53,890 nt of DNA, taken from NCBI GenBank assembly GCA_944391065.1, contig CALXSH010000008.1:1-53890 (forward strand), given 5' to 3'. Positions within the stretch are counted from its first letter, which is position 1. Each line of letters opens with the position of its first letter. Below, one piece after another: positions 20,184 through 53,890 of this stretch. The translations under genes and the position numbers were made by a program. The DNA comes from an uncultured Kiritimatiellota bacterium. GTDB lineage: Bacteria; Verrucomicrobiota; Kiritimatiellia; RFP12; DVOR01. The notes beneath the pieces were generated by a model, which was given only the letters and a program-made list of their open reading frames with translations, was not told the origin of the DNA and did not search any database.

Positions 20184-20201
20184 CTTTGGCCCATCCTTTA
20201 T

Positions 20202-23285: not shown

Positions 23286-24809
23286 ATGACCAATTGCGAG
23301 AAGAATGCGTGTGAAGTGAACACTGTTGACCTATTCTGCGGAGCGGGAGGTGCTGAGACTGGGTTGTCCCTCGCCCTTCGCGACCTCGGACTTTCAAAGC
23401 GCGGGCTGGCTATCAACCACAGGCAGGTTGCGGTGGATACGATGCGCGAAAATCACCCAGACACGGCGACGTTAAGGATGGACTTGGCGAATACGGTGCC
23501 TTCAGATGTTTCGGCGGCGCACAAGATTGACCTTCTTTGGGCATCGCCTGCATGCACTCATCATAGTCGCGCGAAGGGAGGGAAGCCGCGCGACAATCAG
23601 CTGAGGGCTCAGCCTGAGTTGTTGCTGACCTGGATGGATCAGCTGAATGTGGTGGATTTGGTCGTGGAGAATGTCCCCGAATTCACGGAATGGGGGCCGC
23701 TCTTGGCTTCCGGGATGCCTGACAAGAAGAGGCGCGGGGCGTGTTTCAGGGCCTGGGTTGCTGCCATAGAGGCGCGCGGGTATCGAGTCGAGTGGCGCAT
23801 TCTCTGCTGCGCAGACTACGGCGATGCGACGACGAGGCGGCGCTTCTTCCTTCGCGCCCGCAAGCTCTCCTATATCGGGCGCCTCGGTCCGATTGTCTGG
23901 CCGGAACAGACGCACACGGATGGCGAGACGGATAGCCTCTTCGGGTTGAAACCGTGGCGCGGCATCATTGAGTGTCTCGATCTCTCATACCTGGGCACAT
24001 CCATCTTTCACCGCAAGCGTCCGCTCTCGCCCAATACGATGCGGCGGGTCGAGAAAGGGCTGCGAAAGTGCTACGGGAATGCCTTTCTGGTGGACTTCAT
24101 GGGCACGAAGAAGCCGGAAGACGCTTCGCGGATCCACGGGCTCGGCGAGCCGATTCCGACACAAGCAACCTGCAACCGGTTCGGCCTGGCTCGGCCGATG
24201 ATTGTGCAGCTGAATCGCGGCTGCGATGCGACGCCGGCCGAGGCTCCGCTTCCGACGGTGACGTCGGGAGGCGGTCACTTCATGTTGGCCAATCCGGTGA
24301 TATTCGACTACACCAAGGGCGGCGGGGTTTTGAGCACTGAGAAGCCTCTCCCATCGCAGGTGTGCAAGGCTCACAGCGCGTTGCTCTGCCCGATCATTAT
24401 GGATATGAGCCACCCGGCGGAGGCAGACGGTTGCCGCGTGGCTTCGGCGGAGTGTCCGCTTTCGACGCAGACGGCGAGGCGAAATCACGCGGTGCTGATG
24501 CCGGTGGTGATTGACCACCACTTCCAAAACGAGGCACGCGGCTCTGATGCGCCGATGGGGACCCAGACAGCCGTCCGCAATCATTCCCTCGCTTTCCCTG
24601 TGACGGATGGGCCTGTGATCGTCGATGTGCTGATGCGGATGCTGACGACCGAGGAACTTGCCGCGGCGCATTCGTTTCCGGCTGATTATCGGCTTGCCGG
24701 CAATGTTGCCGACAGGGTGAAGCAGATTGGCAACAGTGTGCCTGTCGAGACGGCGCGGGCTATCTGCCGCGAGATTTTTAGGACCCGTATGAAAGGAGTA
24801 AAGAAGTGA
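23286..24809 (+). CDS. Phage DNA cytosine-5 methyltransferase
   Basis: This 507-aa protein transfers methyl from S-adenosylmethionine to C5 of cytosine. It has motif I VDLFCGAGGAETGL near residues 13-26, motif IV SPACTHHSRAKG with the catalytic Cys (the common PPC is replaced, as in a branch of phage enzymes), motif VI VVENVPEF, motif VIII DATTRRRFF, motif IX/X LTTEELAAAHSFP and QIGNSVPVETA near the C terminus. Between VIII and IX lies a region of repeated units with PLPTVTSGG, PLPSQV, PLSTQTARRNH and MGTQTAVRNH, probably target recognition. With no restriction partner nearby, it likely protects phage DNA from host enzymes. GAGGAGGGG precedes the start. Confidence 0.92.
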   Translation: MTNCEKNACEVNTVDLFCGAGGAETGLSLALRDLGLSKRGLAINHRQVAVDTMRENHPDTATLRMDLANTVPSDVSAAHKIDLLWASPACTHHSRAKGGKPRDNQLRAQPELLLTWMDQLNVVDLVVENVPEFTEWGPLLASGMPDKKRRGACFRAWVAAIEARGYRVEWRILCCADYGDATTRRRFFLRARKLSYIGRLGPIVWPEQTHTDGETDSLFGLKPWRGIIECLDLSYLGTSIFHRKRPLSPNTMRRVEKGLRKCYGNAFLVDFMGTKKPEDASRIHGLGEPIPTQATCNRFGLARPMIVQLNRGCDATPAEAPLPTVTSGGGHFMLANPVIFDYTKGGGVLSTEKPLPSQVCKAHSALLCPIIMDMSHPAEADGCRVASAECPLSTQTARRNHAVLMPVVIDHHFQNEARGSDAPMGTQTAVRNHSLAFPVTDGPVIVDVLMRMLTTEELAAAHSFPADYRLAGNVADRVKQIGNSVPVETARAICREIFRTRMKGVKK

Positions 24810-25171
24810 AGGGTATTGATATGAATGTTGCCAGGATGGGTGTCGGCGTTGCCGGCGCGATGGGCAGGGCCAGGCGGCGTTGGCCGCGGTTTGTCGGCTG
24901 CGTGCCGGCGGCTGAGAAGGTTGCGGCATCGGCGGTGCGTGCGATGACGCAGAAGCTGACGGATCCGAGGTGTCCTCAGGATGCGCAGCGGGCGGCAGTC
25001 TTCGATGCGATTGCGGTGATTGTGCGCATTGCGATGAATGACGGCGGATGCCTTGAGCGGCTTGATGATGGACGTCCTGCCGAGGGGAAGCGGCCTCTTT
25101 GCTGGCTGAGCAGGTTTTTTGTAAAGAAGACGCGTCTGGTGGTGAAAGCAAACAAGCAAGGAGGCAGGTGA
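24806..25171 (+). CDS. 121-aa phage protein of unknown function
   Basis: It starts at GTG 24806, overlapping the methyltransferase stop (GTGA), with AAAGGAG at 24792-24798. ATG 24821 is an alternative. Mostly helical, with Arg/Lys-rich stretches (RARRRWPRF, FFVKKTRLVVKANK). No motif is recognised. Part of a chain of overlapping early genes. Confidence 0.6.
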   Translation: MKGIDMNVARMGVGVAGAMGRARRRWPRFVGCVPAAEKVAASAVRAMTQKLTDPRCPQDAQRAAVFDAIAVIVRIAMNDGGCLERLDDGRPAEGKRPLCWLSRFFVKKTRLVVKANKQGGR

Positions 25172-25835: not shown

Positions 25836-25930
25836 TGACGCCTGAGCTGACAGAGGCGCAAGAGGCAATCCTGGACATTTTTGCGGCGGCTATCGTGGAG
25901 CTGCTGCTGGGAGATGGAGGCTTGGAATGA
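25832..25930 (+). CDS. 32-aa coupled small protein
   Basis: MMTPELTEAQEAILDIFAAA... is a single amphipathic/hydrophobic helix ending GDGGLE. Both ends overlap neighbours by ATGA (25832 and 25927), so it may serve mainly to couple translation into the primase-helicase, or be a real microprotein. Confidence 0.45.
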   Translation: MMTPELTEAQEAILDIFAAAIVELLLGDGGLE

Positions 25931-28644
25931 CGCTTGATGAGTTGGTTACTAGGTATTGGCATGACGGGCAATACCGGCGCGAGGGCCGAGGGCGGTATAT
26001 GGTCTGCTGCCCGGTCCATGCTGACAAGACGCCCTCGATGTCGCTCGCGGAGGGCGAGGATGGGAAGATTCTGGTGCGGTGCTTCGGTTGCGGTGCCGGG
26101 GTTGAGCAGTTGGCCGAGCGCCTTGGTGTCGATATCAAGGAGTTCTTCGGGCCAAAAAAGGAGCTGACGGAATTCGAGAAGAGCCACGGCGTGAGGGAAT
26201 GTGTATACGTCTACACGGATGCCCTTGGTCGGAAGCTTTTTTGCAAGGAACGCCGACGGAAGCTCGACGGGTCAAAGACTTTTCTTCAGTCGGTTCCGGC
26301 GCCTCCCGGGTCACGTTTCGAGTGGATGATGGGCAGTGTCACAAAATATCTGGATACGCTCGGCGTGGACAAGCCGCTGTATCGGCTGCCGGAGCTTTTG
26401 CAGGGGATCCGGGATGGGCTGCCGGTCTACTGGGTAGAGGGTGAGAAGGATGTGGAGACGCTGCGCGATCACGGCTTCATCGCGACTACGACGGCAGACG
26501 GTGCAAGCTCGAAGTTGCTGGAGCATTATGCAGGGTATTTCAAGGGCGCGAGCATGGTTTACATCGTGCCCGATAACGACAAGCCGCCGGAGTTCCGGGG
26601 CGGGATAGGTTGGCAAGGGCAGACATTCGCTAAGGCAAAAAGGCAGTTGCTCACAGACAAAAAGGTGCCGTGCAGAGTGCTTGAGTTGCCCGATACGGTG
26701 CTTGGCAAGCATGTCAAGGACTCGACGGACTTCTTCGACGCGGGCGGAACCGAGGCCGAGCTGAAGGCGCTCTCTGATAGGTTAGCCGCGGCTGATGATA
26801 TGTGGCTGCATCCGGCAGACCGCCCTGACGCACCAGTGCTGCCTGAGCCCCCAGAGGGCGCAGATACGGCCGATAAGAAGCTGAAGCCAAAGACGGAGAA
26901 GAGCCTCATGAAGGCTTGGAACGATGCCGACACGCCGCTGGATCAGCGCGTGGATGCGTTCGTCGCTTGGCTGACATTCAACATTCTAAAACGAAACGCG
27001 ACGCCGTCCTGGGCGGTAACGCAGGCTGTCGTTTGTGGAATTAAAGGCCTGAAGGATATCCATAGAATCAGAATGATCTCGGAGCCGGTGATTGCGTGGC
27101 TTGGCAAGGTTGGCAGGCTTTACTATGACGAGTCTGACAGGAGCTTCGCTTCTGAGATGTTCTTCAACGAGTCGGACAAGACGCTTGTCGCGTTGCAATC
27201 AGACATCTTCCAGTCGTGGCTCTCGCGGAAGTCAGGACTAAATCGTGAGGACTCGAAGTTCGGTAAGCTGATGGCAGCAATATCCGACGAAGGCCTTCAA
27301 GGCGCCCGTTCCAAGGGGGTCCGTCCTGAGTATTACTTCGCGAGCCGGCCGGAGGCCTGTTATATCAGCTGTGGGGTTGGCCAGATGGCTAAGATAACGG
27401 CAGGGAAGGTGGAGCTGGTAGACAATGGCACCGACGGCGTCCTTTTCGGAGCCGATAAGGTCCTGCAACCTTGGAAGCTCACAAAGACGCCGCGGGATCC
27501 ATTCGAGACGTGCCAGATATGGACGGGCATGGAGACCGCTCCTGCAAATAGGCTCATTTTCAAGATTTGGGCCATGCTGGTACCGTTCGCCTTCGAGAGT
27601 AAGCCGCCTATCTCCGTCACGGGTGGTGCGGGGTCTGGGAAAACAGCCGTCATCCGAGGGCTCTTTAGGCTATTCGGCCTGGTCCAGCGCTCTGTCTCGG
27701 TCGAATCCGACCCATCGAAGGGGGAGAGTAGCCTATGGGTGCAGCTGAATAGCGGCGGTCTGCTGCTACTCGACAACGTTGACTATAACCCTAAATGGTT
27801 CGCCAATACCGTCGAGGCGGCCAGTACCGGCGCGGCCAAAGAAGTGAAAAAGCTTTACACAAATGCCGAAATCATGCGCCTCGAGCCGAGAGCGGCAATC
27901 GCCATCACGTCAATCAAATCGCTCTTTGCAAGCTCGCAACCGCTCAGCGACCGCATGCTTCACATCAAACTCAACCGTGTGCAAGCGAAGGAGACGAAGG
28001 ACAGCGAGCTATATCGTGAGGTGGATGATGTCCGAGACGATGCGCTGACTTTCATAGCCTGGAAGATCGCGTCAGTGCTGGCCGATAATAAGCCGGTGAG
28101 ACACGTCAACCGGCGTCACCCAGACTTCGGCGCATATGCCCTCCGCATGGGCCGTGCCCTTGGCGTCGAGGAAGATGCTTATAGGGCGATGCGATTGGCC
28201 GAACAACAGAAGTTCCTTCAGAACCTCCGCTCCGATACCTTCGGCGAGATGTGGCTCAATCTGATCCGGGCTCCAGAGACATTCACTGCCGCCGACTTCG
28301 TTCTCAAGATGCGGAATCTAGATGAGCGATTCGTCGATCGTGAGGGATGGAACTCCGTACGCGTCGGCCGAGCCATCGAAAAACTGCGTGAAAGTCTGGT
28401 GTTTTTGTACGATTTAGCCACAAAAAAGCGCCAAAACACTACATTTTACACGGTTACTCCGAGCTCTCTGATCCTTGAAATTCTTCGAGACGAGGAAGCC
28501 GCCGCTCAGGCGGATGACAGGAGTGAGGCCCTCCTTACCTCCCCTGATAACCTGAAGGACAAAGGCTTAACCCTAACACAGCAAGATGCATATGCGGCAT
28601 ACGGTTCCGGGGAGGCTGATGCAGATGGTGCCATCTATTTCTGA
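25927..28644 (+). CDS. Phage primase-helicase
   Basis: This 905-aa replication protein has an N-terminal CHC2-type zinc finger (Cys28, His31, Cys52, Cys55: CPVH and CFGC), then a TOPRIM-like primase core with VEGEKD near residue 173 and PDND near 215. A linker follows, then a helicase domain with Walker A GGAGSGKTAV near 565-574 and Walker B GLLLLDNVDY near 609-618. The zinc finger plus TOPRIM plus ATPase layout is that of T7 gp4-like or satellite-type replicative primase-helicases. No separate DNA polymerase is seen, so the phage probably uses the host replisome. The next ~300 bp carry a large hairpin. The start is coupled to the previous gene. Confidence 0.88.
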   Translation: MTLDELVTRYWHDGQYRREGRGRYMVCCPVHADKTPSMSLAEGEDGKILVRCFGCGAGVEQLAERLGVDIKEFFGPKKELTEFEKSHGVRECVYVYTDALGRKLFCKERRRKLDGSKTFLQSVPAPPGSRFEWMMGSVTKYLDTLGVDKPLYRLPELLQGIRDGLPVYWVEGEKDVETLRDHGFIATTTADGASSKLLEHYAGYFKGASMVYIVPDNDKPPEFRGGIGWQGQTFAKAKRQLLTDKKVPCRVLELPDTVLGKHVKDSTDFFDAGGTEAELKALSDRLAAADDMWLHPADRPDAPVLPEPPEGADTADKKLKPKTEKSLMKAWNDADTPLDQRVDAFVAWLTFNILKRNATPSWAVTQAVVCGIKGLKDIHRIRMISEPVIAWLGKVGRLYYDESDRSFASEMFFNESDKTLVALQSDIFQSWLSRKSGLNREDSKFGKLMAAISDEGLQGARSKGVRPEYYFASRPEACYISCGVGQMAKITAGKVELVDNGTDGVLFGADKVLQPWKLTKTPRDPFETCQIWTGMETAPANRLIFKIWAMLVPFAFESKPPISVTGGAGSGKTAVIRGLFRLFGLVQRSVSVESDPSKGESSLWVQLNSGGLLLLDNVDYNPKWFANTVEAASTGAAKEVKKLYTNAEIMRLEPRAAIAITSIKSLFASSQPLSDRMLHIKLNRVQAKETKDSELYREVDDVRDDALTFIAWKIASVLADNKPVRHVNRRHPDFGAYALRMGRALGVEEDAYRAMRLAEQQKFLQNLRSDTFGEMWLNLIRAPETFTAADFVLKMRNLDERFVDREGWNSVRVGRAIEKLRESLVFLYDLATKKRQNTTFYTVTPSSLILEILRDEEAAAQADDRSEALLTSPDNLKDKGLTLTQQDAYAAYGSGEADADGAIYF

Positions 28645-28955: not shown

Positions 28956-29504
28956 ATGGTGATGGAATTCGATGAGAGTGCGAGAATATTGACCTCGCGG
29001 GAGGCGAGGCGGGTGGCGGAGGCGGTGGCGGTGCGGCGGTGGGCCGTCCGCGTCGAGGCGTTGCGTGCTGAGCTGGCGCGCGTGCTGGCTACGTGTTCGC
29101 GGCGGTTGCAGAGTGGTGGAGTGGCGACGCGGTCCGAGACTGTTGCCGCTCCGCTTGGTATTGCCGTTGGGGTATCGATGCTGCTGATAAGCGGGGAGGG
29201 GGCGGCGCTCTCTGACCGTTCAGGACGCTTTTGGGTTGTTCGTCGCGGGTCTATGGTGTTGCCGGCCTGGACTGTCGGCTATGCCGGCCTTCTCTCTCGG
29301 CGCTCGATGCAGATCGTGAGTCTTTTCAGGTCGCGCAATCAGCGCTCCGCGGTGATGATCGAGGCTGACCTTCGGAGCGCCCTGCGCCTGCGCTGGAACG
29401 AGGTCGGACGGTGCCTTTCCTTGTTGCCACGCGGCGCGAATGTTGCCGACGCGGTGAAGGCGTTTCCTGACGCAGCTGACCTAGTGCGGAGGGTGGTGCG
29501 ATGA
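28956..29504 (+). CDS. Phage protein preceding terminase, targeted by CRISPR
   Basis: This 182-aa protein starts MVMEFDESARILTSREARRV at ATG 28956, eight bases after AGGGAG. The N-terminal third is a long Arg/Glu-rich helix; the rest is alpha/beta with no known motif. Its place just before the large terminase, with an ATGA overlap, suggests a small terminase subunit or DNA-binding partner, but its sequence does not show it. A CRISPR spacer at 53430-53459 matches 29383-29412 (minus strand) perfectly. Confidence 0.6.
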   Translation: MVMEFDESARILTSREARRVAEAVAVRRWAVRVEALRAELARVLATCSRRLQSGGVATRSETVAAPLGIAVGVSMLLISGEGAALSDRSGRFWVVRRGSMVLPAWTVGYAGLLSRRSMQIVSLFRSRNQRSAVMIEADLRSALRLRWNEVGRCLSLLPRGANVADAVKAFPDAADLVRRVVR

Positions 29505-31804
29505 CGGTTGATGACCGGATTCTTCTTCGTTCGATCTCCGAGTCGGTAGGGCATGGGCATCCGCTGACGCTTCCGCAACTGGAGGCGTTGCAACGTATCG
29601 CGCCATCCGACGCTGAGATCCTGATGCGTCGCTCGGTGCGCCTGGCCGACGGCATGGTCAAGGTTGGCAACGCCCTCAGCCCCGCCGAGGCATCAGCCTA
29701 CGCCTCTATCCGCAAGGAGCTAACCGACCTCTCCGCCACCCGCCGCGGACGAACCGGCGCCGAGCGTGTCCGCGACTACGTTGCCCGCGCCTCAGACATC
29801 GGCCCAATCCCGGAGCCCGCAGACCTCGAACGACGCGAGTCATGCAGATCTGACCTTGTCCGCTTCGGCCTCACCTACTGCTCCGGCATACTCGATCATC
29901 CCCCGTCCGAAGCTATGCAGCAATTCATCCGTGCCATGCAACGCGTCCTTCTCGAAGGTGGGAAGCTACATGTCCGCTGGCCACGCGGAAAGGGAAAGAC
30001 GACCTGGGTCAAGATCGGCTCTCTATGGGCCGCAGCCTTCGGCCATCGCCGCTTCCTGGTTGTCATCTCTGCGACGGCGGACGATGCCAAGGAGATTGTC
30101 GGCGACATTATCGACATCATCGAGGCGTCCGATGCCTTCGCCGAGGACTTCCCGGAGATCGGCTACCCCATTCGCGCCCTTGAAGGCGTCTCACAGCGGT
30201 GTCAAACCCAGCACAGCCTCGGGGCACGCACCAAGATTGAGATCCGCGACACCAAGTTGGTCATGCCAACCGTGGCCGGCGCCCCATCCTCAGGCGCCAT
30301 CATCCGCGCCAAGGGAATCAAGGGCTCGCTCCGCGGAATGGTCAAGGGCTCCCTCCGCCCAGACTTTGTCTATCTCGATGATCCTCAAACGCGCAAAGAC
30401 GCGTCTTCCCCTTCCGAGGTCCGAAAATTCCTGGCCGTCGTCGAGGGCGACATCGACGGCCTTGCAGGCCATCGCAAGCAGATGTCCACCATCTTCGCCA
30501 CCACGCCCGTCTGTGCCGGCGACGGCTCCTCGCAGCTCGCCGACCCCGAACGTTTCCCGAACATCAAGACAATCACCTCACCGCTCATCATCCGGTTCCC
30601 CGACCGCATCGACCTCTGGGAAGAATTCACACGACTCTACCGCGCCGAAGGCATCGCCGGCAACGACCGCCACACCGGATCCCGGGAATTCTACCGCCTC
30701 CACCGCCCCGAAATGGACCGTGGCGCCGTCGTCCTCGACCCCGCCGACGGCGACCCGCAGACAGAGGACAGCGCGATCCACCACGCCATGATCAAGCGTG
30801 CCACCATGTCTCCCGAGGCATTCGACGCGGAATACCAGATGACCGTCACCCGCGCCGCCTCCCTATTCGAGCTCACCCCCGCCCTCATGCTCACCCACGT
30901 CACCGCCATCCCCCAGTTCGCCGTCCCCATCGCCTGCTCAGGCGGTTGCGTCGCCTACTGCGATGTTAACGCCGAGGCCGGCCTCCGCTGGGGCGTCCTC
31001 GCCGTCGGCCCGCGGAACCTCACCCACCTTGTCGCTTACGGACGCTACCCGGCCTCTGGCCGCCTCCTCCCCGAGGCAAGCTCTGAGGCCGCCGTCGCCG
31101 CTGCCGTTGCCCGCGGCCTCAAAGCCGTCGCCCAACACATCGCCGCCCTCCCTCTCTTCCGCAACAAACACCGCATCACTCCTTGGGCTCTGTGCTTTGA
31201 CGGCGGCTGGCAGACCCGCACCGTCAGCGCCTTCTGCCAATCCGTCCGCGCCCCCATGAAGGTACTTTGGTCAAAAGGCTTCGGCGGCCGCAACTACCGC
31301 CCGCCACGCACCTCCGCCCTGGTCCGACTCGGTGACAACTGCCACCTCTCTGAGTCCGTCGACAACGGCACCTTCCTCGCCGTCAACGCTGACTTTTGGC
31401 GCGAATACGCGCAGCGCGCCTTCCTCGCCGCCCCCATGTCCCCAGGCGGCATCTCAATCTTCGACGGCACCCCCGAGCGACACGCCGACCTGATTGCCGA
31501 ATGCTGCGCGGAGCGCCTAATCGACAAAACCGACGGCCCCGACGGCCGCCCCCTCTGGCGATGGGAATCCTCCGGCCCCAACCACTACGGCGACGTACTC
31601 TCCGGATGCTTCGCACTCGCGTCCTGGTTCGGCCTGCTCCAACCCGCCCGCGACCTTGTGCTCGACGCCATCAGCGCGGCGCCCGCCCAGTCGGTCACGT
31701 CACCCGTCCAGACACCCGTCCAGTCGCCCCGCAGATCCGCGCATCCTTCACCCGCGCGCTTCGCAACCCCATTCAGACGACGCAAAAAAGCCTCTCCCCT
31801 GTAA
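29501..31804 (+). CDS. Terminase large subunit
   Basis: This 767-aa packaging motor and nuclease has Walker A RGKGKTT at residues 162-168, a coupling-type segment VVISATADDAKE near 187-198, Walker B DFVYLDDPQ near 288-296, and an RNase H-like nuclease start CVAYCDVN near 483-490. The length exceeds the common 450-650 aa, mainly through a ~130-residue N-terminal region without motifs and a Pro/Ser-rich tail. Codon third positions change from G/T-rich to strongly C-rich within the first ~60 codons. The CRISPR spacer at 52047-52076 matches 30052-30081 with one mismatch. Confidence 0.88.
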   Translation: MTVDDRILLRSISESVGHGHPLTLPQLEALQRIAPSDAEILMRRSVRLADGMVKVGNALSPAEASAYASIRKELTDLSATRRGRTGAERVRDYVARASDIGPIPEPADLERRESCRSDLVRFGLTYCSGILDHPPSEAMQQFIRAMQRVLLEGGKLHVRWPRGKGKTTWVKIGSLWAAAFGHRRFLVVISATADDAKEIVGDIIDIIEASDAFAEDFPEIGYPIRALEGVSQRCQTQHSLGARTKIEIRDTKLVMPTVAGAPSSGAIIRAKGIKGSLRGMVKGSLRPDFVYLDDPQTRKDASSPSEVRKFLAVVEGDIDGLAGHRKQMSTIFATTPVCAGDGSSQLADPERFPNIKTITSPLIIRFPDRIDLWEEFTRLYRAEGIAGNDRHTGSREFYRLHRPEMDRGAVVLDPADGDPQTEDSAIHHAMIKRATMSPEAFDAEYQMTVTRAASLFELTPALMLTHVTAIPQFAVPIACSGGCVAYCDVNAEAGLRWGVLAVGPRNLTHLVAYGRYPASGRLLPEASSEAAVAAAVARGLKAVAQHIAALPLFRNKHRITPWALCFDGGWQTRTVSAFCQSVRAPMKVLWSKGFGGRNYRPPRTSALVRLGDNCHLSESVDNGTFLAVNADFWREYAQRAFLAAPMSPGGISIFDGTPERHADLIAECCAERLIDKTDGPDGRPLWRWESSGPNHYGDVLSGCFALASWFGLLQPARDLVLDAISAAPAQSVTSPVQTPVQSPRRSAHPSPARFATPFRRRKKASPL

Positions 31805-31921: not shown

Positions 31922-32236
31922 ATGAATTCGGGAATCCGCCTCATCAAGCTCTCGCCCGCCGAATACCGGCAGCGCCTGGCAGCCATCCGCTCCGACTACG
32001 AGCAGACCAGGGCCGCCATCACCGCGCTTGTGACCGGAGCTCAGTCAGCTAGCATCTCCACCGCCGGCGGCTCCCGAACCTTCACCCGCGCGGACCTGGA
32101 CAAACTCCGCGACTACTCCGCCACCCTGGCCCGCCGCTACCGCTCCATGCTCGCCGCGTCAATGACCAAAAACGGGCATCCGCTAAGCGCCCCCAATGTA
32201 CGCCGCATGTGGGCAGACTGGAGCCGCTCCGAATGA
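31922..32236 (+). CDS. gpW-like head-tail joining protein
   Basis: This 104-aa protein (MNSGIRLIKLSPAEYRQRLA...) resembles lambda gpW in its layout: helix, then ALVTGAQSASISTAGGSRTFTRADLDKL, comparable to the DLMTG...V...GR.VEFT..SVSDL pattern of gpW, then a second helix. gpW plugs the portal after packaging. Its position between terminase and portal matches lambda. The stop overlaps the portal start. Confidence 0.7.
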   Translation: MNSGIRLIKLSPAEYRQRLAAIRSDYEQTRAAITALVTGAQSASISTAGGSRTFTRADLDKLRDYSATLARRYRSMLAASMTKNGHPLSAPNVRRMWADWSRSE

Positions 32237-33888
32237 AGCGATCTCTCACCGACACCCTCCGCGACATCTTCCGCCGCGCCGCCGCCTCCCACAAGGCCGG
32301 CGGCTTCCGCGGCGCCAGAGCCCAATACTCTGCCATTGACCGTGACGCCAAGCTCCGCTCTCAGCTCACAGTCGAGACCAAGGGCGAGGACTGGCAGCTC
32401 CGCGGCTACCGCCGCGTCCAGATGCTCGCCCTCATGCGCGATAATTTCCGCAACGCCCCCGAGGCACGCGCCTTGGTCGAGCAGCGCGCCCTCAACATCG
32501 TCGGCCCCTGCGGCGGTACCCTCCAGCTCACCACATCCGACGAAGCATTCAACGCCGCCGCCTCCGCCGTCTTCGCCTCCTGGGCCCGCCGCGCCGAATT
32601 CACCCAGGGCCTCCCCCTCAATGAGGCTCTCCGCCGCATACAGATCTCCCTCGACATCGGCGGCGACTGCGTGGTCATTGTCGACACCCCGGACCGCGCA
32701 TCCGGAGCAGAAGCCCCCTTTACAGGATCCGGCCGCATCCGCGTATTCGATGCAGATGAGATAGGCCCCCTTTCGGAATCAGACTTCGCCCCTCTCAAAG
32801 CCTCCGGCCTCTCCCAGTCCGAAGGCCTCATCTATGACGCCTTCGGCCGCCATGTCGGCGTCATCGTCTCCACCACAGAGCGAGGCAAGAGCGTCTTCCG
32901 CAAGGACGCCTCCATGGTCCTCCTCCGGGATCCCGATAGTCCCATCCCCTCAAACTGGACCTATCTGCAATCCGGCTGGCGCTGCAACCAGGGACGCGGC
33001 GTCACTCCCTTCGCCACAATCGCCGCCACCCTCTCCCAGATCGAGAGCATCACACAGAGCGAGACCGCAGCAGCCCACCTCAATTCCCAGATGCTCGGTT
33101 CCTACGTCCGCACCGATGACCGACGCCGCGACGAAGAGGAGGCCCTCCCCGACAACTTCCGCCCCATCGAGGTCACCGAGAGCGGCACCGCCATCGACGA
33201 AACCGGCGAAACGGTCCCTTCCGAAGAGCTCGAAGATGCCCTGCTCACCGACGAGGCCCTCGCAGAAGAAGCAAAACCCGAGTTCCCCGATGAGCTGATG
33301 CGCGCCAATGGCGTCTTCTGGGATGTCCTCCCCGAAGGCTGGGAGGGCAAGCTCTACGATACTAAGCGCCCAAATGCCAACGTCGCCGCCTTCATCGACT
33401 TCCTCACCGGCCGCGCCGCAGCCGCCCTCAGCGTCGGGAAGCAATACATCACCTGCGACCCCCAGCAGTCTTACAGCGCCTTCCGCGGCTCACAGGTCCT
33501 CACTTGGCCCTCATTCCTCAAAGGGCAGAAAGACCTCGAGCGCAATCTCTGCGACTGGCTCGCCCGCGTTGTCCTCGGCGAGGCCATGCTTGCCGGCATC
33601 CTCCGACCCCCTGCCGTAGGCAACGACCTCGGCGCCTCCCTCTTCTGGTCCTGGCCAAAGATGGCCGAGGCTAATGCCCTCGATGCCGCAAACGTCGAGA
33701 AGACACGCCTCTCCACGGGCTCCCTCACCTATCGCGAAATGTTCGGCCCATCCTGGCGCGAGCGCCTCGCGGAAATCGCCGACGAAGTCGAGGCCTCCCG
33801 CGCACTCGGCATCGCCCATCCCATGACCGTCACCGTCGCCGGCGCTGTTGTCCCGGCCCCTAATGACAAAGGAAACCCCGATGAATAA
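32233..33888 (+). CDS. Portal protein (lambda gpB-like)
   Basis: This 551-aa portal subunit forms the dodecameric ring for DNA entry. Recognisable segments are the N-terminal helices (MKRSLTDTLRDIFRRAA), RDNFRNAPEARALVEQRALNIVGP (close to the lambda-type portal pattern of ARDLxRNNxxARxxxxxxxxNIVG), DADEIGPL near residue 178, and a C-terminal helical region (SFLKGQKDLERNLCDWLARV). It starts on an ATGA overlap with the gpW-like gene. Confidence 0.88.
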   Translation: MKRSLTDTLRDIFRRAAASHKAGGFRGARAQYSAIDRDAKLRSQLTVETKGEDWQLRGYRRVQMLALMRDNFRNAPEARALVEQRALNIVGPCGGTLQLTTSDEAFNAAASAVFASWARRAEFTQGLPLNEALRRIQISLDIGGDCVVIVDTPDRASGAEAPFTGSGRIRVFDADEIGPLSESDFAPLKASGLSQSEGLIYDAFGRHVGVIVSTTERGKSVFRKDASMVLLRDPDSPIPSNWTYLQSGWRCNQGRGVTPFATIAATLSQIESITQSETAAAHLNSQMLGSYVRTDDRRRDEEEALPDNFRPIEVTESGTAIDETGETVPSEELEDALLTDEALAEEAKPEFPDELMRANGVFWDVLPEGWEGKLYDTKRPNANVAAFIDFLTGRAAAALSVGKQYITCDPQQSYSAFRGSQVLTWPSFLKGQKDLERNLCDWLARVVLGEAMLAGILRPPAVGNDLGASLFWSWPKMAEANALDAANVEKTRLSTGSLTYREMFGPSWRERLAEIADEVEASRALGIAHPMTVTVAGAVVPAPNDKGNPDE

Positions 33889-35113
33889 CAGAATCCCCAT
33901 CAATGGCGTCATCCTCGACGCCGGCGCCTACGCCCTCCGCCCCTACATCGTCCGCGACACCGCCACGTTCCCGCAGGACGTCTCCGGAGCCTTGGCCAAT
34001 TGCGACCCCGCCCGTGACATCATACTTGAGGTCAATTCGCCCGGCGGCGTCTGCTCTGCCGGCTTCACCATCATCGACTCCGTCAATGACTGGTGCTGCG
34101 CAAATGGCCGCAAGTGTCACGTCGAGATCGGAGCTCAGGCATGCTCCATGGCCGCCGTCATCGCCTTCGCCTTCGACGGCGACGTCGCCGTCCATGACGG
34201 CACCATGGTCATGTTCCATTCCTCTCGCACCTTGGCGGAGGGCACAGCCTCCCAGATCCGCGACGCCGCCGACTGCCTCGAGGTCATCGACTCGGCCATT
34301 GCCCGCACCATTGCACGCCGCATTGGCAAGGGCGAAGCCGAGGCCCGCGAATGGATTGCCGGAACAAAAGAGACATTCCTCGGCTCCAAGCAGCTTATCG
34401 CACTCGGCCTCGCCGGCTCCGTCATCGGAACCGCCGAAGAGCCTCCCGCCGCCCCCGCCGTCGCCCTCAAAGGCTTCCGCTCCTTCGTCGCGTCCTTCGG
34501 CCTCCGCCGGGATGCCGGCGTCATGGCCGCCGTCGCCTGTGCCGAAGAGCTCGCCGACCCCGAGCCGCCCGCCGACCCCACGCCGCCGGCCGACCCCACG
34601 CCGCCGGCCGACCCCGCGCAGCCTGCCGATCCCGCGCCGCCTGCCGATCCCGCGCCGCCTGCCGAGCCCGCACAGCCAGCCGACCCCACGCCGCCGGCCG
34701 ACCCCACGCCGCCGGCCGACCCCGAGCCTGCCGCCCAGGCCGCCGCGGCCCCCGCCGCAGACATCAAGGCCATCATCGACTCCGCCGTCGCCTCCGCTGT
34801 CGCCGTCGCTGTCGCCCCCCTCAATGACCGCATCACCGCCCTAACCGGCGAACTCTCCGCGGCCACCGCTCGCGCCACCGCCGCCGAGGCAGCCCTCGAC
34901 GCCGCCAAGCGCACCGCCGACGACCTCCGCAAGAACATCGTCTCCGGCGCATGCAAACCCCCGGCCACCAAAGCCGCCCCCGCCGCCAACCGTCCCGCCG
35001 GCGAAGTCCTTTCTGATTGGTACCGCGCCGTCAAGGCCTGCGGCGGCTCCATGCAGGAAGCCGCACGCAAACACCCCGAACTCTTTGAGGCTGCGAAGGT
35101 CGCGGCCCTCTGA
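33881..35113 (+). CDS. Prohead protease fused to scaffold (gpC/Nu3-like)
   Basis: This 410-aa protein has an N-terminal ClpP/S49-type serine protease with LEVNSPGGVCSAGF near residues 49-62, the nucleophile Ser in ACSMAAVIAFA near 89-99, and MFH near 113-115. The family matures the capsid. A Pro-rich tandem repeat of PPADPT/PPADPA (about residues 228-283) follows, then a coiled coil (TALTGELSAATARATAAEAALDA) and a C-terminal segment like a capsid scaffold. The DNA start at 33881 follows AAAGGAAA and overlaps the portal stop by 8 bp. Confidence 0.85.
   Translation: MNNRIPINGVILDAGAYALRPYIVRDTATFPQDVSGALANCDPARDIILEVNSPGGVCSAGFTIIDSVNDWCCANGRKCHVEIGAQACSMAAVIAFAFDGDVAVHDGTMVMFHSSRTLAEGTASQIRDAADCLEVIDSAIARTIARRIGKGEAEAREWIAGTKETFLGSKQLIALGLAGSVIGTAEEPPAAPAVALKGFRSFVASFGLRRDAGVMAAVACAEELADPEPPADPTPPADPTPPADPAQPADPAPPADPAPPAEPAQPADPTPPADPTPPADPEPAAQAAAAPAADIKAIIDSAVASAVAVAVAPLNDRITALTGELSAATARATAAEAALDAAKRTADDLRKNIVSGACKPPATKAAPAANRPAGEVLSDWYRAVKACGGSMQEAARKHPELFEAAKVAAL
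34561..34730 (+). repeat. 18-bp tandem coding repeat (PPADPT/A)
   Basis: About nine to ten units based on CCGCCGGCCGACCCCACG and its GCG variant. It encodes a stiff Pro-rich linker between the protease and scaffold domains. Unit number is likely to vary between relatives. Confidence 0.8.
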
Positions 35114-39317: not shown

Positions 39318-40781
39318 ATGGCCGGACAGGTCGCTACCGCTGTAGCAATCCAAATCAAGGGCAAGGACTCGACCAAGAGAGCCTTCGACTCCGCCGCGAA
39401 GAATGCCGAGGGGCTCGGCTCCAAGATGTCCAAGGCCCTCAAGGTCACCGCCGCCGCCATCGGCGTCGGTACCCTGGGAATGAAGGTCAAGTCCGCCCTC
39501 GATGACATGACCAGGCTCCATGACCTCGCACAGCAGTCCGGCGTCTCCTCATCCTGGCTCACGCAGTTCACCGGCGCGCTCGGCCAGGCAGGCATCAATC
39601 TCAAGATCAACGATATTGTCAACAGCATCCAGAAGCTGAATGCCGGCCTTGTCAACACCGAGAAGATCGCCGCCCTCGACAAGCTCGGCATCGACATCCG
39701 CGACCTTCAGGGCCTCGCCCCCGAAAAGGCCTTCCTAGGATTCCTCGAAAAAGTCGCCGCCGTCAATGATGAGCAGACCCGCTCCCTCGCCCTCATGCGC
39801 GGCATGGAAGAAATGGGCCTCAAGTTGGCCCCCCTCCTCCGCCAGGGACCCGAGGCATTCTCAGAGTCCCTCGGCAAAGTCATGCAGATGATTCCCTCCG
39901 TCTCCGACAAGACGGTAGACCTCGCCACTGGCACCTCGAACGCCCTCAGCGTCGTGTCCCAGGATATGCAGAAAACATTCTGGGCAGGTCTCGGATCCCT
40001 CCTCGGCTATACCGACTCCGCAGCAGGCGGAATCGAGGCGGCAATCCAGAGGTCCTACTTCACCGCGAAGGCCTTCGCCGAAAACTTCGCTGTCATCGTC
40101 GGCTCCGTCATCTCCAATACCGTATCACTGATCAAGGTTGCGACAGCCGACATCGATGCAGCCCTCGGAATCTGTTACAACAAGTTCAGGCAAGTATCCA
40201 CCGCTCTCTCCGGATACATCGCCTACCGCATCGCCGAGGCTCAGGGCTTCAGCCAGGAAGGCCTCGACGCCATCGCCGAGGCCGCAGCCAGAACAGCGTC
40301 CCGATACGGATCGAAGGTCAATGAGATCATCGAGAAGACCGGAGTCTCCTTCAGGGAGGTCGGCGCAACCCTCGCCGAGAATGAGGCCGAACTCCGCCGC
40401 AAGATCGCCGACATCGATGCCGGCGTCGCCGCAAAGGCGAAGCTCTCCGTCATCGCGCCTCCTGAATCCGCGCTTGCGGTACTCTCCGACTCGGTCAAGT
40501 CCGCAACCAAAAAGGGTGTGAAGGACGGCCTCATGGAGGGCATCGAGGCTACCTCCTACGACGCGCTCAAGCAGACCATCAAGAGCGCATCCTCCGCACT
40601 CTCCGCCGCCTGGTCCCCAAGCTCCGCGCCCTCCGCACTCTCCCGCGTCTCCTCCTCCCCCTCTGTCGTCTCATCCGTCCGCTACGGATCGGGTACCGCC
40701 AAAATCGAGGCTCTCATGAAGCAGCTCCTCACCGTCGTCACCGGCGGCGTCAATGCCGTCAAGAAACTGGAGGCCTTCTGA
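39318..40781 (+). CDS. Tail tape measure protein
   Basis: This 487-aa protein has the N-terminal pattern AIQIKGKDSTKRAFDSAAKNAEGLGSK common to tape measures. Two hydrophobic stretches follow (VTAAAIGVGTLGMKV and FAVIVGSVISNTVSLI) among helical segments. It follows the G/GT pair, as in lambda. At roughly 0.15 nm per residue it predicts a short tail of about 70 nm (family rule, not measured). Confidence 0.82.
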   Translation: MAGQVATAVAIQIKGKDSTKRAFDSAAKNAEGLGSKMSKALKVTAAAIGVGTLGMKVKSALDDMTRLHDLAQQSGVSSSWLTQFTGALGQAGINLKINDIVNSIQKLNAGLVNTEKIAALDKLGIDIRDLQGLAPEKAFLGFLEKVAAVNDEQTRSLALMRGMEEMGLKLAPLLRQGPEAFSESLGKVMQMIPSVSDKTVDLATGTSNALSVVSQDMQKTFWAGLGSLLGYTDSAAGGIEAAIQRSYFTAKAFAENFAVIVGSVISNTVSLIKVATADIDAALGICYNKFRQVSTALSGYIAYRIAEAQGFSQEGLDAIAEAAARTASRYGSKVNEIIEKTGVSFREVGATLAENEAELRRKIADIDAGVAAKAKLSVIAPPESALAVLSDSVKSATKKGVKDGLMEGIEATSYDALKQTIKSASSALSAAWSPSSAPSALSRVSSSPSVVSSVRYGSGTAKIEALMKQLLTVVTGGVNAVKKLEAF

Positions 40782-43501: not shown

Positions 43502-46500
43502 ATGGTCCGACTCTACGCTCTGTCGCTCATCATCCTGGCCGTCACCGTCGCCTGCGCCGAGTCCGCACGGTTAGGCTCACTGCGGCCGTCTGACACCGTT
43601 GTCACCGCCGAGGACGACGCAGCGGCGCTTGAGGCCGTCGCCGAACTCGAATCCAACACCGCCGCCGCCCTCACCGCCAAGGCCTCGAAGGCCGACCTCG
43701 CCGCCGAGGTCAACCGCGCCCAGGCAGCCGAGGCCGCACTCGACGCACGCCTCGACGCAGCCGAGCCCGCCATCGTCGCCGCACAGGCCGACGCATCCGC
43801 CGCACTCGGCGCCGCCGCCGAAGCCAAAACCGCCGCCGATGCCGCCGCCGTCCGCGCCAACGCCGCTCACACCGCCGCCTCCAACGCCGCCACCAAGGCC
43901 GACCTCTCCGCCGAATCGGCCCGCGCCCAAGCCGCCGAAGCAGACGCCGCCGCCGCTGCTGCGTCGGCCCTCTCCGCCGCACAGGCCGCCCAGACCGCCG
44001 CAGCATCCGCGAAGACCAAGGCCGACGCCGCCCACACCGTCGCCTCCGCAGCCGTCACGCAATCCCAGCTCCAGGCAGAATCAGCCCGCGCCCAAGCCGC
44101 CGAAGCCGACGCCAGGAACCAGGCCATCAAGTCCGCAGAAGCCGCCGCCGAAGCCATCGGCGCCGCCTCCGACGCCTCAGCAGCTGCATCCGCAGCCGTC
44201 GCCGATATCGCAGCTGCCGTTGAGGCAGCAGACGCCGCCGTTGCGGCGGCAAGCGATGTCATCAACGTCTATTCGGAGATCGAGGAGAGGGCCTATCCCA
44301 GACTTGTCGGAGAAAGCACGCCACTCTTCGCGCAAATTGACACCCGGGACACCTTTGGCCCTGCCTCCGTTGTCGGCTATCTGTCCAGGATCCGTTCATT
44401 CTCAATAAATCCTTTTTCGGTAACAGGAAATGACGCGCTCCAAAGGCCCTTCACGGCCGTCACATCCGTAGCCCTCACCGGGGTCACGCTGGTCTACGGT
44501 GACGGAGTGTCTGCAAAGGATTGCTCGTGGATGGTCTACGGCAGGACTGACGGGAGCGCCGAGGAGGTGCTCGTCAAGACGGTCGCCGTTGATGAGCCGG
44601 TCAATCAGCAGATTATTGACTTCGATCCGCCTCTCGCGGGATACACGGCCGTCAGATTCCGGATCCAGCCGACAGATTGGGCAGGCTCAGACGATTCGCA
44701 GACACTTGTCGATTCTGTCTACATCTTAGCTGATCAGAGATCATGGACAGCCTACGGCGGTTCGGCCTGCACGCCGTCTTCGCTGGGGAATGTGAGCGGG
44801 ACTCCGCGCCTCACCGTCACAGGTCACGTGTCGACGGATGACCCTGGATGGTTCGTCCACTTCGAGGGGGCAGATCGCGACAGACTGGTCACGCGCGATG
44901 ATCTCGACGACGCCCTCGCCGACCTGGATGTCGGAATTGTTGCCGAGACTGACCCCACCGTCCCCGCCTGGGCAAAGGCCCCCGAAAAGCCCGCCTACAC
45001 CGCCGCCGAGGTCGGCGCAGCCCCTGCCGGCGACTACCTCACGGCAGAAGCCGACCCTACCGTCCCCGCCTGGGCTAAGGCCACCGAAAAGCCGGCCTAC
45101 ACCGCCGCCGAGGTCGGCGCTCAGCCTGCCGGCGACTATATCGGGGAAGACGGTGGGACTGTTCACGGCATCCTCCGTCTGGAGAATCCGAGAATTGCAG
45201 CCGACGCAGACGCAGGTCACGATATCGCCATCGTTCCTAACGCCGAAGGCGAAGGCCTTCAGATACAGTTCCCCGACGGCACTACGGCCTACTTTGCCAA
45301 GCGAACCGGCACCGTCGCCATGGTCTCCGACATCCCCAAGGACATCAGCGGGCCAGTCTGGGTTCACCCCGGCGACTGGACACTCGCCGTGCGCCCCCTC
45401 GATGACACCGTCGTCGAGGACAGCGCGACGAACGTGTCGACAAACGTCCTCGGCCAGATCGTCGGCACCAGATCCCTCACCGTCACCCAGGGCAACACCG
45501 TCAGCGTCTCGCCTCAGCCTCTCGATCAGCTCCCCACCGGCACTGCCCCGGAGGCCCTCACCTACACCCTCATCTCCGGCCCCGCAACCCTCTCCACGGA
45601 CGGCAACGCCGCCACCCTCACCGCCACCGGCGACGGCCTCGCCCGCGTCTCCGCCACGGATGGCACCGTCACCCGTACCGTCATGACCTCCTTCCGCCAG
45701 GATGTCACCGACTACGACGACGTCATCACCTATCTCGGCGATGCCGACGGGACCGTACGCGCAGGCGTCAACGACGCCTTCCTCGCCGTCCTTCAGGCCC
45801 GCGACACCTCTGTCACCGTTCCCTCCGGCGTCACCCCCGCCGTCGCCGCCTGTGACTACCTCTACGCGACGAATGGCACCGCGCCGACCGCCTTCTCGCC
45901 GACCCTCCCGCTCGACCCGTCTCTCTGCTGTATGGTCGACACAAAGGTCAGCCAATACGGGCAGCGTCACTTTGCCATAGCGCCTCACTTCGCTCTCACC
46001 GCCGCGCATTGGTGGCCCGGCGGCGTCGGCCGCACCGGCCGCTGGCTGACCCCGGACGGCACCGTCGCCACCACCACGACCACCGGCGGCGTACGCCTCC
46101 GCGACTGGGCCATCGCAAACGGTTACACGACTGAGGAGGCCTCCGCCGTCTCGGACATCTACGTCTTCCGCACCGACAACGCCATCCCCGATGCCTGCAT
46201 CCCCTACGTCATCGATCGCCCCGCCATTGACGCCATCTTCGGCGGCTCGCTGCGCGGCATCAACTGCTACGCCGTCGCTCAGAATGGCTATCTGACCTAT
46301 AGCTACTACCTTTCCGACGTCGGGAGCAGTTGGGCTGCCCCTGGACTGCTCACGCCCTCTTCGCTTGGCCTCTCCAATCTCCCCTGCCGCCGCGACATCG
46401 CCTTGCTCCTCGCGCCGTCCTACGCCGCGCAGATCTACGGCGGTGATTCCGGGATGCCCGTCTTCTTCGTCTACGAAGGCAAGCCCGTCGTCACCTCGCT

Positions 46501-46630
46501 CTTCTGGACCGTCATGGCAGGCTCCTCCCTCGTCACCGGCGCCGACATCCTCGATGCCTACATCCGACAGGCAAGCGGCGGCGCCGAATCACTCAAACGC
46601 ATCACAATCCCTTCGGAGGTCAACGAATGA
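43502..46630 (+). CDS. Tail fibre with C-terminal trypsin-like protease domain
   Basis: This 1042-aa protein begins with a signal-peptide-like segment (MVRLYALSLIILAVTVACAES). A ~200-residue Ala-rich coiled coil follows, then a beta domain (about residues 260-460), a 34-residue repeat based on DPTVPAWAKA.EKPAYTAAEVGA (two copies, 44951-45154), and a fibre-type segment. An Ig-like stretch (LSTDGNAATLTATGDGLARV) leads to a domain with the trypsin triad: TAAHW with His836, SDIYVF with Asp885 and GGDSGMPVF with Ser983. The H-D-S spacing (49 and 98) is close to chymotrypsin (45 and 93). This domain may cut surface proteins or the fibre itself. Two CRISPR spacers target the His and Asp motif DNA. 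Confidence 0.8.
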   Translation: MVRLYALSLIILAVTVACAESARLGSLRPSDTVVTAEDDAAALEAVAELESNTAAALTAKASKADLAAEVNRAQAAEAALDARLDAAEPAIVAAQADASAALGAAAEAKTAADAAAVRANAAHTAASNAATKADLSAESARAQAAEADAAAAAASALSAAQAAQTAAASAKTKADAAHTVASAAVTQSQLQAESARAQAAEADARNQAIKSAEAAAEAIGAASDASAAASAAVADIAAAVEAADAAVAAASDVINVYSEIEERAYPRLVGESTPLFAQIDTRDTFGPASVVGYLSRIRSFSINPFSVTGNDALQRPFTAVTSVALTGVTLVYGDGVSAKDCSWMVYGRTDGSAEEVLVKTVAVDEPVNQQIIDFDPPLAGYTAVRFRIQPTDWAGSDDSQTLVDSVYILADQRSWTAYGGSACTPSSLGNVSGTPRLTVTGHVSTDDPGWFVHFEGADRDRLVTRDDLDDALADLDVGIVAETDPTVPAWAKAPEKPAYTAAEVGAAPAGDYLTAEADPTVPAWAKATEKPAYTAAEVGAQPAGDYIGEDGGTVHGILRLENPRIAADADAGHDIAIVPNAEGEGLQIQFPDGTTAYFAKRTGTVAMVSDIPKDISGPVWVHPGDWTLAVRPLDDTVVEDSATNVSTNVLGQIVGTRSLTVTQGNTVSVSPQPLDQLPTGTAPEALTYTLISGPATLSTDGNAATLTATGDGLARVSATDGTVTRTVMTSFRQDVTDYDDVITYLGDADGTVRAGVNDAFLAVLQARDTSVTVPSGVTPAVAACDYLYATNGTAPTAFSPTLPLDPSLCCMVDTKVSQYGQRHFAIAPHFALTAAHWWPGGVGRTGRWLTPDGTVATTTTTGGVRLRDWAIANGYTTEEASAVSDIYVFRTDNAIPDACIPYVIDRPAIDAIFGGSLRGINCYAVAQNGYLTYSYYLSDVGSSWAAPGLLTPSSLGLSNLPCRRDIALLLAPSYAAQIYGGDSGMPVFFVYEGKPVVTSLFWTVMAGSSLVTGADILDAYIRQASGGAESLKRITIPSEVNE
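44951..45154 (+). repeat. 102-bp tandem coding repeat in the fibre gene
   Basis: Two copies of a 34-codon unit encoding DPTVPAWAKA(P/T)EKPAYTAAEVGA(A/Q)PAGDY. Such units are common near fibre domain borders and are known sites of recombination between fibres. Confidence 0.75.
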
Positions 46631-51088: not shown

Positions 51089-51131
51089 GTCTGTGCGGCA
51101 TGGGGCCGCAGGGCGTCGCGCGCCGTAATGT

Positions 51132-51197: not shown

Positions 51198-51198
51198 G

Positions 51199-51377
51199 CC
51201 TATTGCTCCGGCAGTTAAATATCAGCATGAGCGGCATACTGGACGTGCCTGTCCTTGAAGTAGCCTTTTACACGCTCTGGGGTGGATTTGAGCATCTGCA
51301 TATGAGATTCGGCTTTTTCCAGCAGCTTTTCACGCGACCTTCGCGGCTTCCAGATATTTAACTGCCAGAGCAATAGG
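51199..51377. mobile_element. 179-bp MITE-like or internally deleted insertion sequence
   Basis: Ends in 25-bp inverted repeats (51199-51223 and 51353-51377) differing at one base. The interior encodes, on the minus strand, the last ~40 residues of what looks like a transposase (REKLLEKAESHMQMLKSTPE...), with a stop inside the left repeat. The right repeat runs straight into the truncated first CRISPR repeat. Confidence 0.6.
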
Positions 51378-53890
51378 GTTTGATACACTAGTTTCCCGAC
51401 GGAGTTTAGCCACCGGACAGTTGTGAAAAGACACCCATTTAGGGTTTGATACACTGGAACGCCTCGTCTCGGTCGCCCTGACCAGTTGTGAAAAGACACC
51501 CATTTAGGGTTTGATACACTCACGCAGAAGCCCGCCCCTCGGCTATCCTAGTTGTGAAAAGACACCCATTTAGGGTTTGATACACTCGACCCAAAACCAT
51601 CCCCTCGGACTTACAGTTGTGAAAAGACACCCATTTAGGGTTTGATACACTCATAAACGGACATACTAATCCTCATAATCAGTTGTGAAAAGACACCCAT
51701 TTAGGGTTTGATACACTCATAAACGGACATACTAATCCTCATAATCAGTTGTGAAAAGACACCCATTTAGGGTTTGATACACTCGCCGCTACGACCCGTT
51801 TGACGGCCACATGTTGTGAAAAGACACCCATTTAGGGTTTGATACACTTGACGATTACGAGGGCGACGGCCTCGGATAGTTGTGAAAAGACACCCATTTA
51901 GGGTTTGATACACTGCTGATACGACAGGTCCGCACGCACGGAGGGTTGTGAAAAGACACCCATTTAGGGTTTGATACACTGGGCGCTCGGTCTTGCCCTA
52001 AACAACGACGGTTGTGAAAAGACACCCATTTAGGGTTTGATACACTCTTCTTGGTTGTCATCTCTGCGACGGCGGAGTTGTGAAAAGACACCCATTTAGG
52101 GTTTGATACACTCTACGTCTTCCGCACCGACAACGCCATCCCGTTGTGAAAAGACACCCATTTAGGGTTTGATACACTCAAGTAGGGCGTCGGCTTGTCG
52201 GCATAACCGTTGTGAAAAGACACCCATTTAGGGTTTGATACACTCGCAACAGAGTACCCCGCCACCAACCGCAGGTTGTGAAAAGACACCCATTTAGGGT
52301 TTGATACACTGAAGACTAGATCGGAAAGCGTGGTTAGAATGTTGTGAAAAGACACCCATTTAGGGTTTGATACACTTCTTAGCGCAACAATCGAGAAATT
52401 GCACAGTTGTGAAAAGACACCCATTTAGGGTTTGATACACTAAGTTCAAGCGGGTCATCGGCATTCCCCGCGTTGTGAAAAGACACCCATTTAGGGTTTG
52501 ATACACTTTCGGCATCCGAAGGCACCAGAGCCGCCTCGTTGTGAAAAGACACCCATTTAGGGTTTGATACACTTGATCAGATTAAAAATCCTATTGATTT
52601 CGGGTTGTGAAAAGACACCCATTTAGGGTTTGATACACTTTTTACCTGGAGAAGTTCGCGGTGGACGCGTTGTGAAAAGACACCCATTTAGGGTTTGATA
52701 CACTCCAACTACGCGCGCGGCATCTATCCCGACCGTTGTGAAAAGACACCCATTTAGGGTTTGATACACTTCGATGATGGCGTTGGTTTTGACGGCGCTG
52801 GTTGTGAAAAGACACCCATTTAGGGTTTGATACACTTGGCGGTGGAGGAGGGCGATCTGGACGGCGGTTGTGAAAAGACACCCATTTAGGGTTTGATACA
52901 CTCGTCACCGGCATCGCGCGCTCGACCAGCGTGTTGTGAAAAGACACCCATTTAGGGTTTGATACACTGAGGGGGCGGAGAAAGCGACGAACGAGGTCGT
53001 TGTGAAAAGACACCCATTTAGGGTTTGATACACTAGAAATCTCTCGTACGGGGGCCACTTGGGAGTTGTGAAAAGACACCCATTTAGGGTTTGATACACT
53101 CACTATGCCCATCATCATCCCTGACATCCTGTTGTGAAAAGACACCCATTTAGGGTTTGATACACTCAACTTTGCCGGTGCGATAAACGAGATCGAGTTG
53201 TGAAAAGACACCCATTTAGGGTTTGATACACTCTATCAGTGCCATAAAAAGGCAAAGAGCCAGTTGTGAAAAGACACCCATTTAGGGTTTGATACACTAA
53301 AACGCCGTGGATAGTGAAGAGCGTCTGGTTGTGAAAAGACACCCATTTAGGGTTTGATACACTGCCGATTGCGGTGAAGTTCGCTGAGTCGTTGTTGTGA
53401 AAAGACACCCATTTAGGGTTTGATACACTACCGTCCGACCTCGTTCCAGCGCAGGCGCAGTTGTGAAAAGACACCCATTTAGGGTTTGATACACTCCACC
53501 AATGCGCGGCGGTGAGGGCGAAGTGGTTGTGAAAAGACACCCATTTAGGGTTTGATACACTTTATCCCGCAAAACGTTTACCATGCAGTAGTTGTGAAAA
53601 GACACCCATTTAGGGTTTGATACACTCTTCGTCTTCGGCGGAAACAAGCGCCTGCTGTTGTGAAAAGACACCCATTTAGGGTTTGATACACTATAGACGT
53701 TGTCCATGATAGGATAGATAGGGTTGTGAAAAGACACCCATTTAGGGTTTGATACACTCAACGCGGTCAATCGGCGGCTGCTCGCGGAGTTGTGAAAAGA
53801 CACCCATTTAGGGTTTGATACACTTGGTTTTGAGCCGCGCACGGCTGGTTTTTAGTTGTGAAAAGACACCCATTTAGGGTTTGATACACT
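51374..53890 (+). CRISPR. CRISPR array, 38 full repeats plus one truncated; type II-like
   Basis: A 36-bp repeat starts at 51420, 51485, 51551 and so on every 65-66 bp to 53855. It begins GTTGTGAAAAGACACC and ends GGGTTTGATACACT; all copies look identical. Spacers are 29-30 nt. A 5'-truncated repeat (last 16 nt, 51374-51389) precedes an extra 30-nt spacer (51390-51419). The spacers at 51652 and 51718 are identical. Four spacers match the adjacent prophage: 52047-52076 (terminase, 29/30), 52113-52142 (fibre protease, 30/30), 53430-53459 (pre-terminase gene, 30/30) and 53496-53525 (fibre protease, 29/30). Repeat length, spacer length, a GTTGT start and a 3' PAM support type II-C. No cas gene or tracrRNA is seen here; the array runs off the window edge. 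Confidence 0.97.

Follow-up and report, generated by a model that had tools for sequence, protein, structure and literature searches.

A CRISPR array in a gut bacterium of the class Kiritimatiellae carries four spacers (of 38 assembled) against the prophage integrated next to it, two of them identical to their targets at 30/30 positions and two at 29/30. Both elements lie in the window, which is the entire contig C8 (53,890 bp) of a MAG of 1.96 Mb in 79 contigs, a population consensus from a metagenome assembly with estimated completeness of 93.9% and contamination of 1.2%. A previous sequence-only reading had described these self-matches as two adjacent spacer pairs, each directed at one strand, and realignment reproduced all positions, strands, identities and mismatch sites exactly, with 52047/52113 matching the plus strand and 53430/53496 the minus strand of the prophage (Table). 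Aligning all spacers to the window, a check proposed at the time, left every other real spacer with at least 8 mismatches, while shuffled spacers had a minimum of 7 mismatches (190 trials). When all spacers were compared with the whole MAG, these four were the only matches outside the array, so that self-matches are confined to the ~1.6% of the genome represented by the prophage. Self-targeting of the adjacent prophage was thus borne out, and it is strengthened by the PAM shared by the four targets.

The array consists of 38 full, identical repeats and one truncated repeat, giving 38 assembled spacers instead of the 39 counted earlier; 37 of these, of 29–30 nt, follow the oldest spacer. The contig stops on the last base of a repeat, and the array is therefore incomplete. 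There was no second array of the same repeat in the MAG, the repeat core was not found in GTDB genome contigs, and allowing up to 3 mismatches it was not found in other members of the family. Two adjacent spacers (51652-51681 and 51718-51747) are identical and represent a duplicated repeat-spacer unit. Between the prophage and the array, upstream of the truncated repeat, lies an IS-like remnant (51130-51377) with TGTCAAATGAAAAGTGCACC-type subterminal repeats at 51133 and 51177 and a 25-bp inverted repeat (51199-51223 / 51353-51377, 24/25 identical), which abuts and truncates the first CRISPR repeat.

Table. Coordinates of the prophage, its protospacers and the neighbouring CRISPR array in the window
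Feature	Position	Strand	Details
Left attachment core TCCACCATAA	20271..20280	+	at 3′ end of tRNA-Ala(CGC), 20202-20277
Large serine integrase (Resolvase domain)	20228..21826	-	PF00239 1.9e-30; phrog_95 2.2e-61
Cytosine-5 DNA methyltransferase	23286..24809	+	PF00145 2.5e-23; phrog_116 2e-58
Orphan 121-aa protein, operon with methyltransferase	24806..25171	+	no family
Primase/helicase-like replication protein	25927..28644	+	phrog_6088 8.1e-19; PF01807
Protospacer	29383..29412	-	3′ flank GGGCGCT; in 204-aa gene just upstream of terL
Terminase large subunit (terL)	29501..31804	+	phrog_38 4.8e-29
Protospacer	30052..30081	+	3′ flank CGATGCC; in terL
Portal protein	32209..33888	+	phrog_21 2e-24
Head maturation protease	33848..35113	+	phrog_94 3.1e-30
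Tail tape measure-like protein	39318..40781	+	phrog_9483 4e-6; 43% identical to G015 prophage gene
1042-aa tail-module protein, two protospacers	43502..46630	+	phrog_32072 2.5e-5
Protospacer	45986..46015	-	3′ flank AGGCGCT; in 1042-aa tail-module gene
Protospacer	46159..46188	+	3′ flank CGATGCC; in 1042-aa tail-module gene, with 45986-46015
Right attachment core, copy of TCCACCATAA	51034..51043	+	followed by terminator-like sequence
Truncated first repeat, 15 nt	51375..51389	+	cas-distal, oldest; exact repeat 3′ end
Oldest assembled spacer	51390..51419	+	21/30 to G015 prophage primase gene
CRISPR array, open at contig end	51420..53890	+	38 identical 36-bp repeats GTTGTGAAAAGACACCCATTTAGGGTTTGATACACT
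Spacer	51981..52010	+	24/30 to G015 prophage primase gene; directly before first matching pair
Spacer	52047..52076	+	30052-30081 (+), 29/30; mismatch at spacer position 5, PAM-distal
Spacer	52113..52142	+	46159-46188 (+), 30/30
Spacer	53430..53459	+	29383-29412 reverse complement (- strand), 30/30
Spacer	53496..53525	+	45986-46015 reverse complement (- strand), 29/30; mismatch at position 22, 9 nt from PAM side

The prophage measures 30.8 kb, and its right end is 331 bp from the truncated repeat. It has the composition of an integrated temperate phage, with integrase, packaging, head and tail genes located between duplicated attachment cores, and with the reading frames of integrase, methyltransferase, primase-like protein, terminase, portal, protease and tail genes all open it appears intact. 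The tRNA-Ala is found at 100% identity in several relatives, where it is followed by other terminators, and the left boundary can thus be placed with confidence; on the right, the exact position of the boundary depends on the 10-bp core TCCACCATAA. An empty attachment site with the same flanks was not seen in the relatives. Target 45986-46015 encodes HFALTAAHWW within the 1042-aa tail-module protein, which has no Pfam match; the peptide resembles LTAAH, the catalytic-histidine motif of trypsin-like proteases. Scanning IMG/VR with the seeds of all four matching spacers identified no related phage, and two IMG/VR matches to one spacer seed were dismissed as chance, since both phages are unrelated and differ from the complete spacer at 8 and 10 positions.

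All four targets (4/4) share the 3′ motif NGRYGCY in repeat orientation, and their 5′ flanks have nothing in common. For random flanks, at least three invariant columns out of eight have a probability of P = 7e-4, and the motif common to the four targets makes them look PAM-licensed. Type II-C Cas9 usually reads a PAM located 3′ of the protospacer after an N4 gap, and the motif is likewise on the protospacer 3′ side. The GC at positions 5-6 is kept in two further spacer matches to a related prophage in the same-genus genome G015, which points to NNNNGC as the putative PAM core; these two matches were picked post hoc and serve as supporting evidence only. The genome hence contains perfect, PAM-flanked targets of its own spacers. 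Neither target nor PAM mutation has freed the prophage, given that the PAM is retained at all four sites and that two of the sites match their spacers without any mismatch.

No cas9 or cas1 was found in the 94% complete MAG by Cas9, Cas1 and direct protein searches (the Cas9_PI model had no match in any control genome either), an absence that is uninformative because the contig stops within the array, at the very point where the cas genes are expected from synteny. The type of the array can be read from the same-genus genome G003 (Kiritimatiellae bacterium RGIG6510, sheep rectum), with a repeat (GTTGTGAAAAGACTCCCTCTTGGGATTTGATACAAT) that is identical to GTTGTGAAAAGACACCCATTTAGGGTTTGATACACT at 29/36 positions and adjoins an open 1250-aa cas9, cas1 and, where cas2 would be expected, a 115-aa ORF. 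This sister locus fits the type II-C gene set of cas9, cas1 and cas2, without csn2 or cas4, and by synteny with it the array described here is type II-C-like. An anti-repeat is present at the cas9 start in the sister locus (L085, about 7996-8010), and none was found within the window. The G003 cas genes are on the side toward which its array is transcribed, so the cas genes of our bacterium are expected just beyond position 53890. Furthermore, truncated or divergent repeats are cas-distal in both arrays, indicating that spacers are added at the cas side; for the Flavobacterium columnare array, too, transcription is reported to run toward the variable end (PMC10309648). The 3′ end of the repeat, TGATACACT, is extended -10 promoter-like, and the same 14-nt string (GGGTTTGATACACT) is located at 20172-20185 before the tRNA-Ala as a putative promoter. 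Judged from this identity the two probably share an extended -10 promoter element, which fits GGGTTTGATACACT better than a stray repeat or an attachment site. Promoters are embedded in type II-C repeats, and TGATACACT at the repeat end is in keeping with this.

Other CRISPR loci were seen in the genus as well. A different Cas9 locus with Csn2 (G002:C248, L054) suggests that type II-A-like systems are also present, and G015 has a 66-copy array with an unrelated repeat (GTGTTGCTGTACC...) beside a 1087-aa Cas9-like frame (G015:C4, L056); the spacers of this array had no close match to the related prophage in the same genome.

The G015 prophage is syntenic with the one described here, with ~45% amino-acid identity in TerL and primase, and shares with it two early genes (22751 and 25464), while neither the methyltransferase nor the 121-aa gene (24806) had a match there. 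Two further spacers of our array, neither matched by the resident prophage, resemble the primase gene of the G015 prophage, with 5/6 mismatches of spacer 51981-52010 in one codon phase and 8/9 mismatches of the oldest spacer (51390-51419) spaced by threes. Mismatches almost only at every third position are what synonymous substitutions leave behind in a protein common to both phages. In the sister array of G003, one spacer matches the portal gene of the G015 prophage at 28/30 positions, so arrays of two species sampled the same phage family. The suggestion of repeated encounters with relatives of this phage, made in the sequence-only reading, gains strength from the two additional family spacers and from the sister array in another species, and this is read as a long arms race with one phage family. 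A resemblance of spacer 53233 to the G015 terL (8/9 residues, 18/30 bases) was not counted, as its score fell within the control range.

Since new spacers are added at the cas side, 52047/52113 is the older pair and 53430/53496 the younger. The younger targets are 669 and 173 bp from the older ones (P = 0.002–0.004 versus random PAM sites in the prophage, a post hoc comparison on four spacers). The two pairs fit the two separate encounters proposed earlier, and the closeness of later to earlier targets additionally suggests Cas9-primed adaptation, in which new protospacers cluster near older targets, as is seen here with modest statistical support; the later pair was thus possibly acquired in this way. 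Such clustering of targets results from Cas9-primed acquisition in type II-A systems (PMC8265633). Acquisition hot spots, or mosaic relatives matching the prophage in some modules only, are rival sources of the clustering. For the 1042-aa gene no relative was found in the G015 prophage or IMG/VR, and broad gene conservation is therefore no explanation for the matches in this gene.

Perfect PAM-flanked chromosomal targets should be lethal under active Cas9 (PMC6990116), and with four PAM-flanked guides against the resident virus, either the Cas9 defence is blocked, off or lost, or the assembly mixes strains. The ways out had been correctly listed before (an inhibitor, broken or silent cas genes, DNA modification or strain mixture), with none singled out. 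We rank a phage-borne Cas9 inhibitor first, tentatively and as something close to an even bet, followed by loss or silence of the cas genes, then strain mixture, with methylation far behind. The array itself may constrain the order of events: no fewer than 25 of the assembled spacers were added after the first matching pair, which makes the matching spacers old and probably earlier than the prophage. This addition of at least 25 spacers argues against autoimmune acquisition, in which the spacers would have been taken from the resident prophage after lysogeny; it would account for the two perfect matches, but the other two are imperfect, and two spacers that adjoin or predate the matching ones are directed at another phage of the family, making it very improbable.

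In the scenario that we favour, the lineage would have met close relatives of the phage at least twice and stored four spacers with PAM-bearing targets, the later pair being taken 0.2–0.7 kb from the earlier targets, possibly Cas9-primed. A member of the phage family would later have lysogenised the cell, with its serine integrase acting on the tRNA-Ala beside the array, and the lysogen would live through expression by the prophage of a Cas9 inhibitor, an anti-CRISPR of unrecognised family. The lack of escape by target or PAM mutation makes survival through such an inhibitor the likeliest route, and the identical repeats and the contig break at a repeat end, which fit an array that is still growing and differs between cells, place it first. 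Prophage-borne Acrs are an established route to tolerate self-targeting (PMC6990116).

If instead the cas genes were lost, broken or silent, the array would be a fossil record and the prophage would be tolerated without an inhibitor. Loss of cas genes after self-targeting is documented in Lactobacillus acidophilus (PMC6990116), and the reading would agree with the missing cas9 and cas1 in this MAG and with most same-genus genomes also having no strong Cas9 match. However, the contig break falls inside the array at exactly the cas position predicted by synteny and all repeats are identical, and we consider this reading rather unlikely. The same break is viewed differently if strains are mixed, since a contig end exactly at a repeat boundary is a sign of array diversity in a population. 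In a metagenome assembly, spacer-bearing cells without the prophage and lysogens with other array alleles or none could have been merged by the assembler, the 331-bp flank and the older spacers being common to both. A single contig nevertheless spans host genes, both attachment sites and 38 spacers, with the first matching pair only ~1 kb from the right attachment site, and together with the low contamination estimate this renders a mixture unlikely. Finally, the phage cytosine-5 methyltransferase or another DNA modification could hide the targets from Cas9. The enzyme looks intact and is absent from the related G015 prophage, and the PAM core includes a C, but plain 5-methylcytosine is well tolerated by the Cas9 enzymes that have been studied to date, and the prophage proteins searched included none recognisable as a hypermodification enzyme; we regard protection of this kind as improbable.

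Returning to the inhibitor, no known Acr family was found among ten early and late prophage proteins, and none of the tested prophage proteins was recognisable as the product of a canonical HTH aca gene. New Acrs are usually without match to known Acr or Aca families. The 121-aa orphan behind the methyltransferase, which has only weak matches among 346 genomes of the class, is one candidate anti-CRISPR among several, and when this protein and a 123-aa early protein were modelled with AlphaFold, the structures (mean pLDDT of 53 and 56) were too poor for a fold search.

Self-targeting of this type is a classic lead to viral Cas9 inhibitors that are still to be discovered. If cas9 is intact, the Cas9 blocker must be held in ~31 kb with perhaps a dozen small genes of unassigned function, which makes for a small search, and we know of no anti-CRISPR against Cas9 from this phylum. 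With the PAM core, and with the anti-repeat and cas9 of the sister genome, everything required to reconstitute the system in laboratory E. coli is available. Primed adaptation in type II-C, for which to our knowledge there is little evidence, likewise has a natural test case in this array. That the locus holds both a new Acr family acting on a Kiritimatiellae type II-C-like Cas9 (NNNNGC) and a natural record of type II-C primed adaptation is a guarded possibility, and would be the most far-reaching outcome.

The locus is a new example of well-known prophage self-targeting, with the addition of a defined PAM and a reconstructable sister system. Self-targeting spacers are present in roughly 7–18% of genomes surveyed, according to reviews (PMC6990116), and self-targeting served as the logic of anti-CRISPR screening in Rauch et al. 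2017 and Watters et al. 2018, as these are cited in PMC6990116. The Acr-tolerated cases (PMC6990116) share with ours a chromosomal array, PAM-flanked perfect matches and a resident, intact-looking prophage, and differ in that here no Acr was identified, the genome is a MAG of an uncultured member of the Kiritimatiellae, array and prophage lie side by side and the cas genes are unassembled. The later spacers lie within hundreds of bases of the earlier targets, as in the Cas9-primed acquisition of type II-A systems (Nussenzweig et al. 2019, as cited in PMC8265633; Streptococcus mutans, PMC8265633), whereas our case concerns a type II-C-like array in a natural population and four spacers only. 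With the type II-C systems of Neisseria meningitidis, Campylobacter and Flavobacterium it has in common 36-bp repeats, 30-nt spacers, a 3′ PAM after an N4 gap, three cas genes with no csn2 seen (in the G003 sister locus, not its own) and a repeat ending in promoter-like TGATACACT with transcription toward the variable end (Flavobacterium columnare, PMC10309648); compared with these known systems, the PAM core NNNNGC is inferred here, and the array is known without its own cas9 or tracrRNA.
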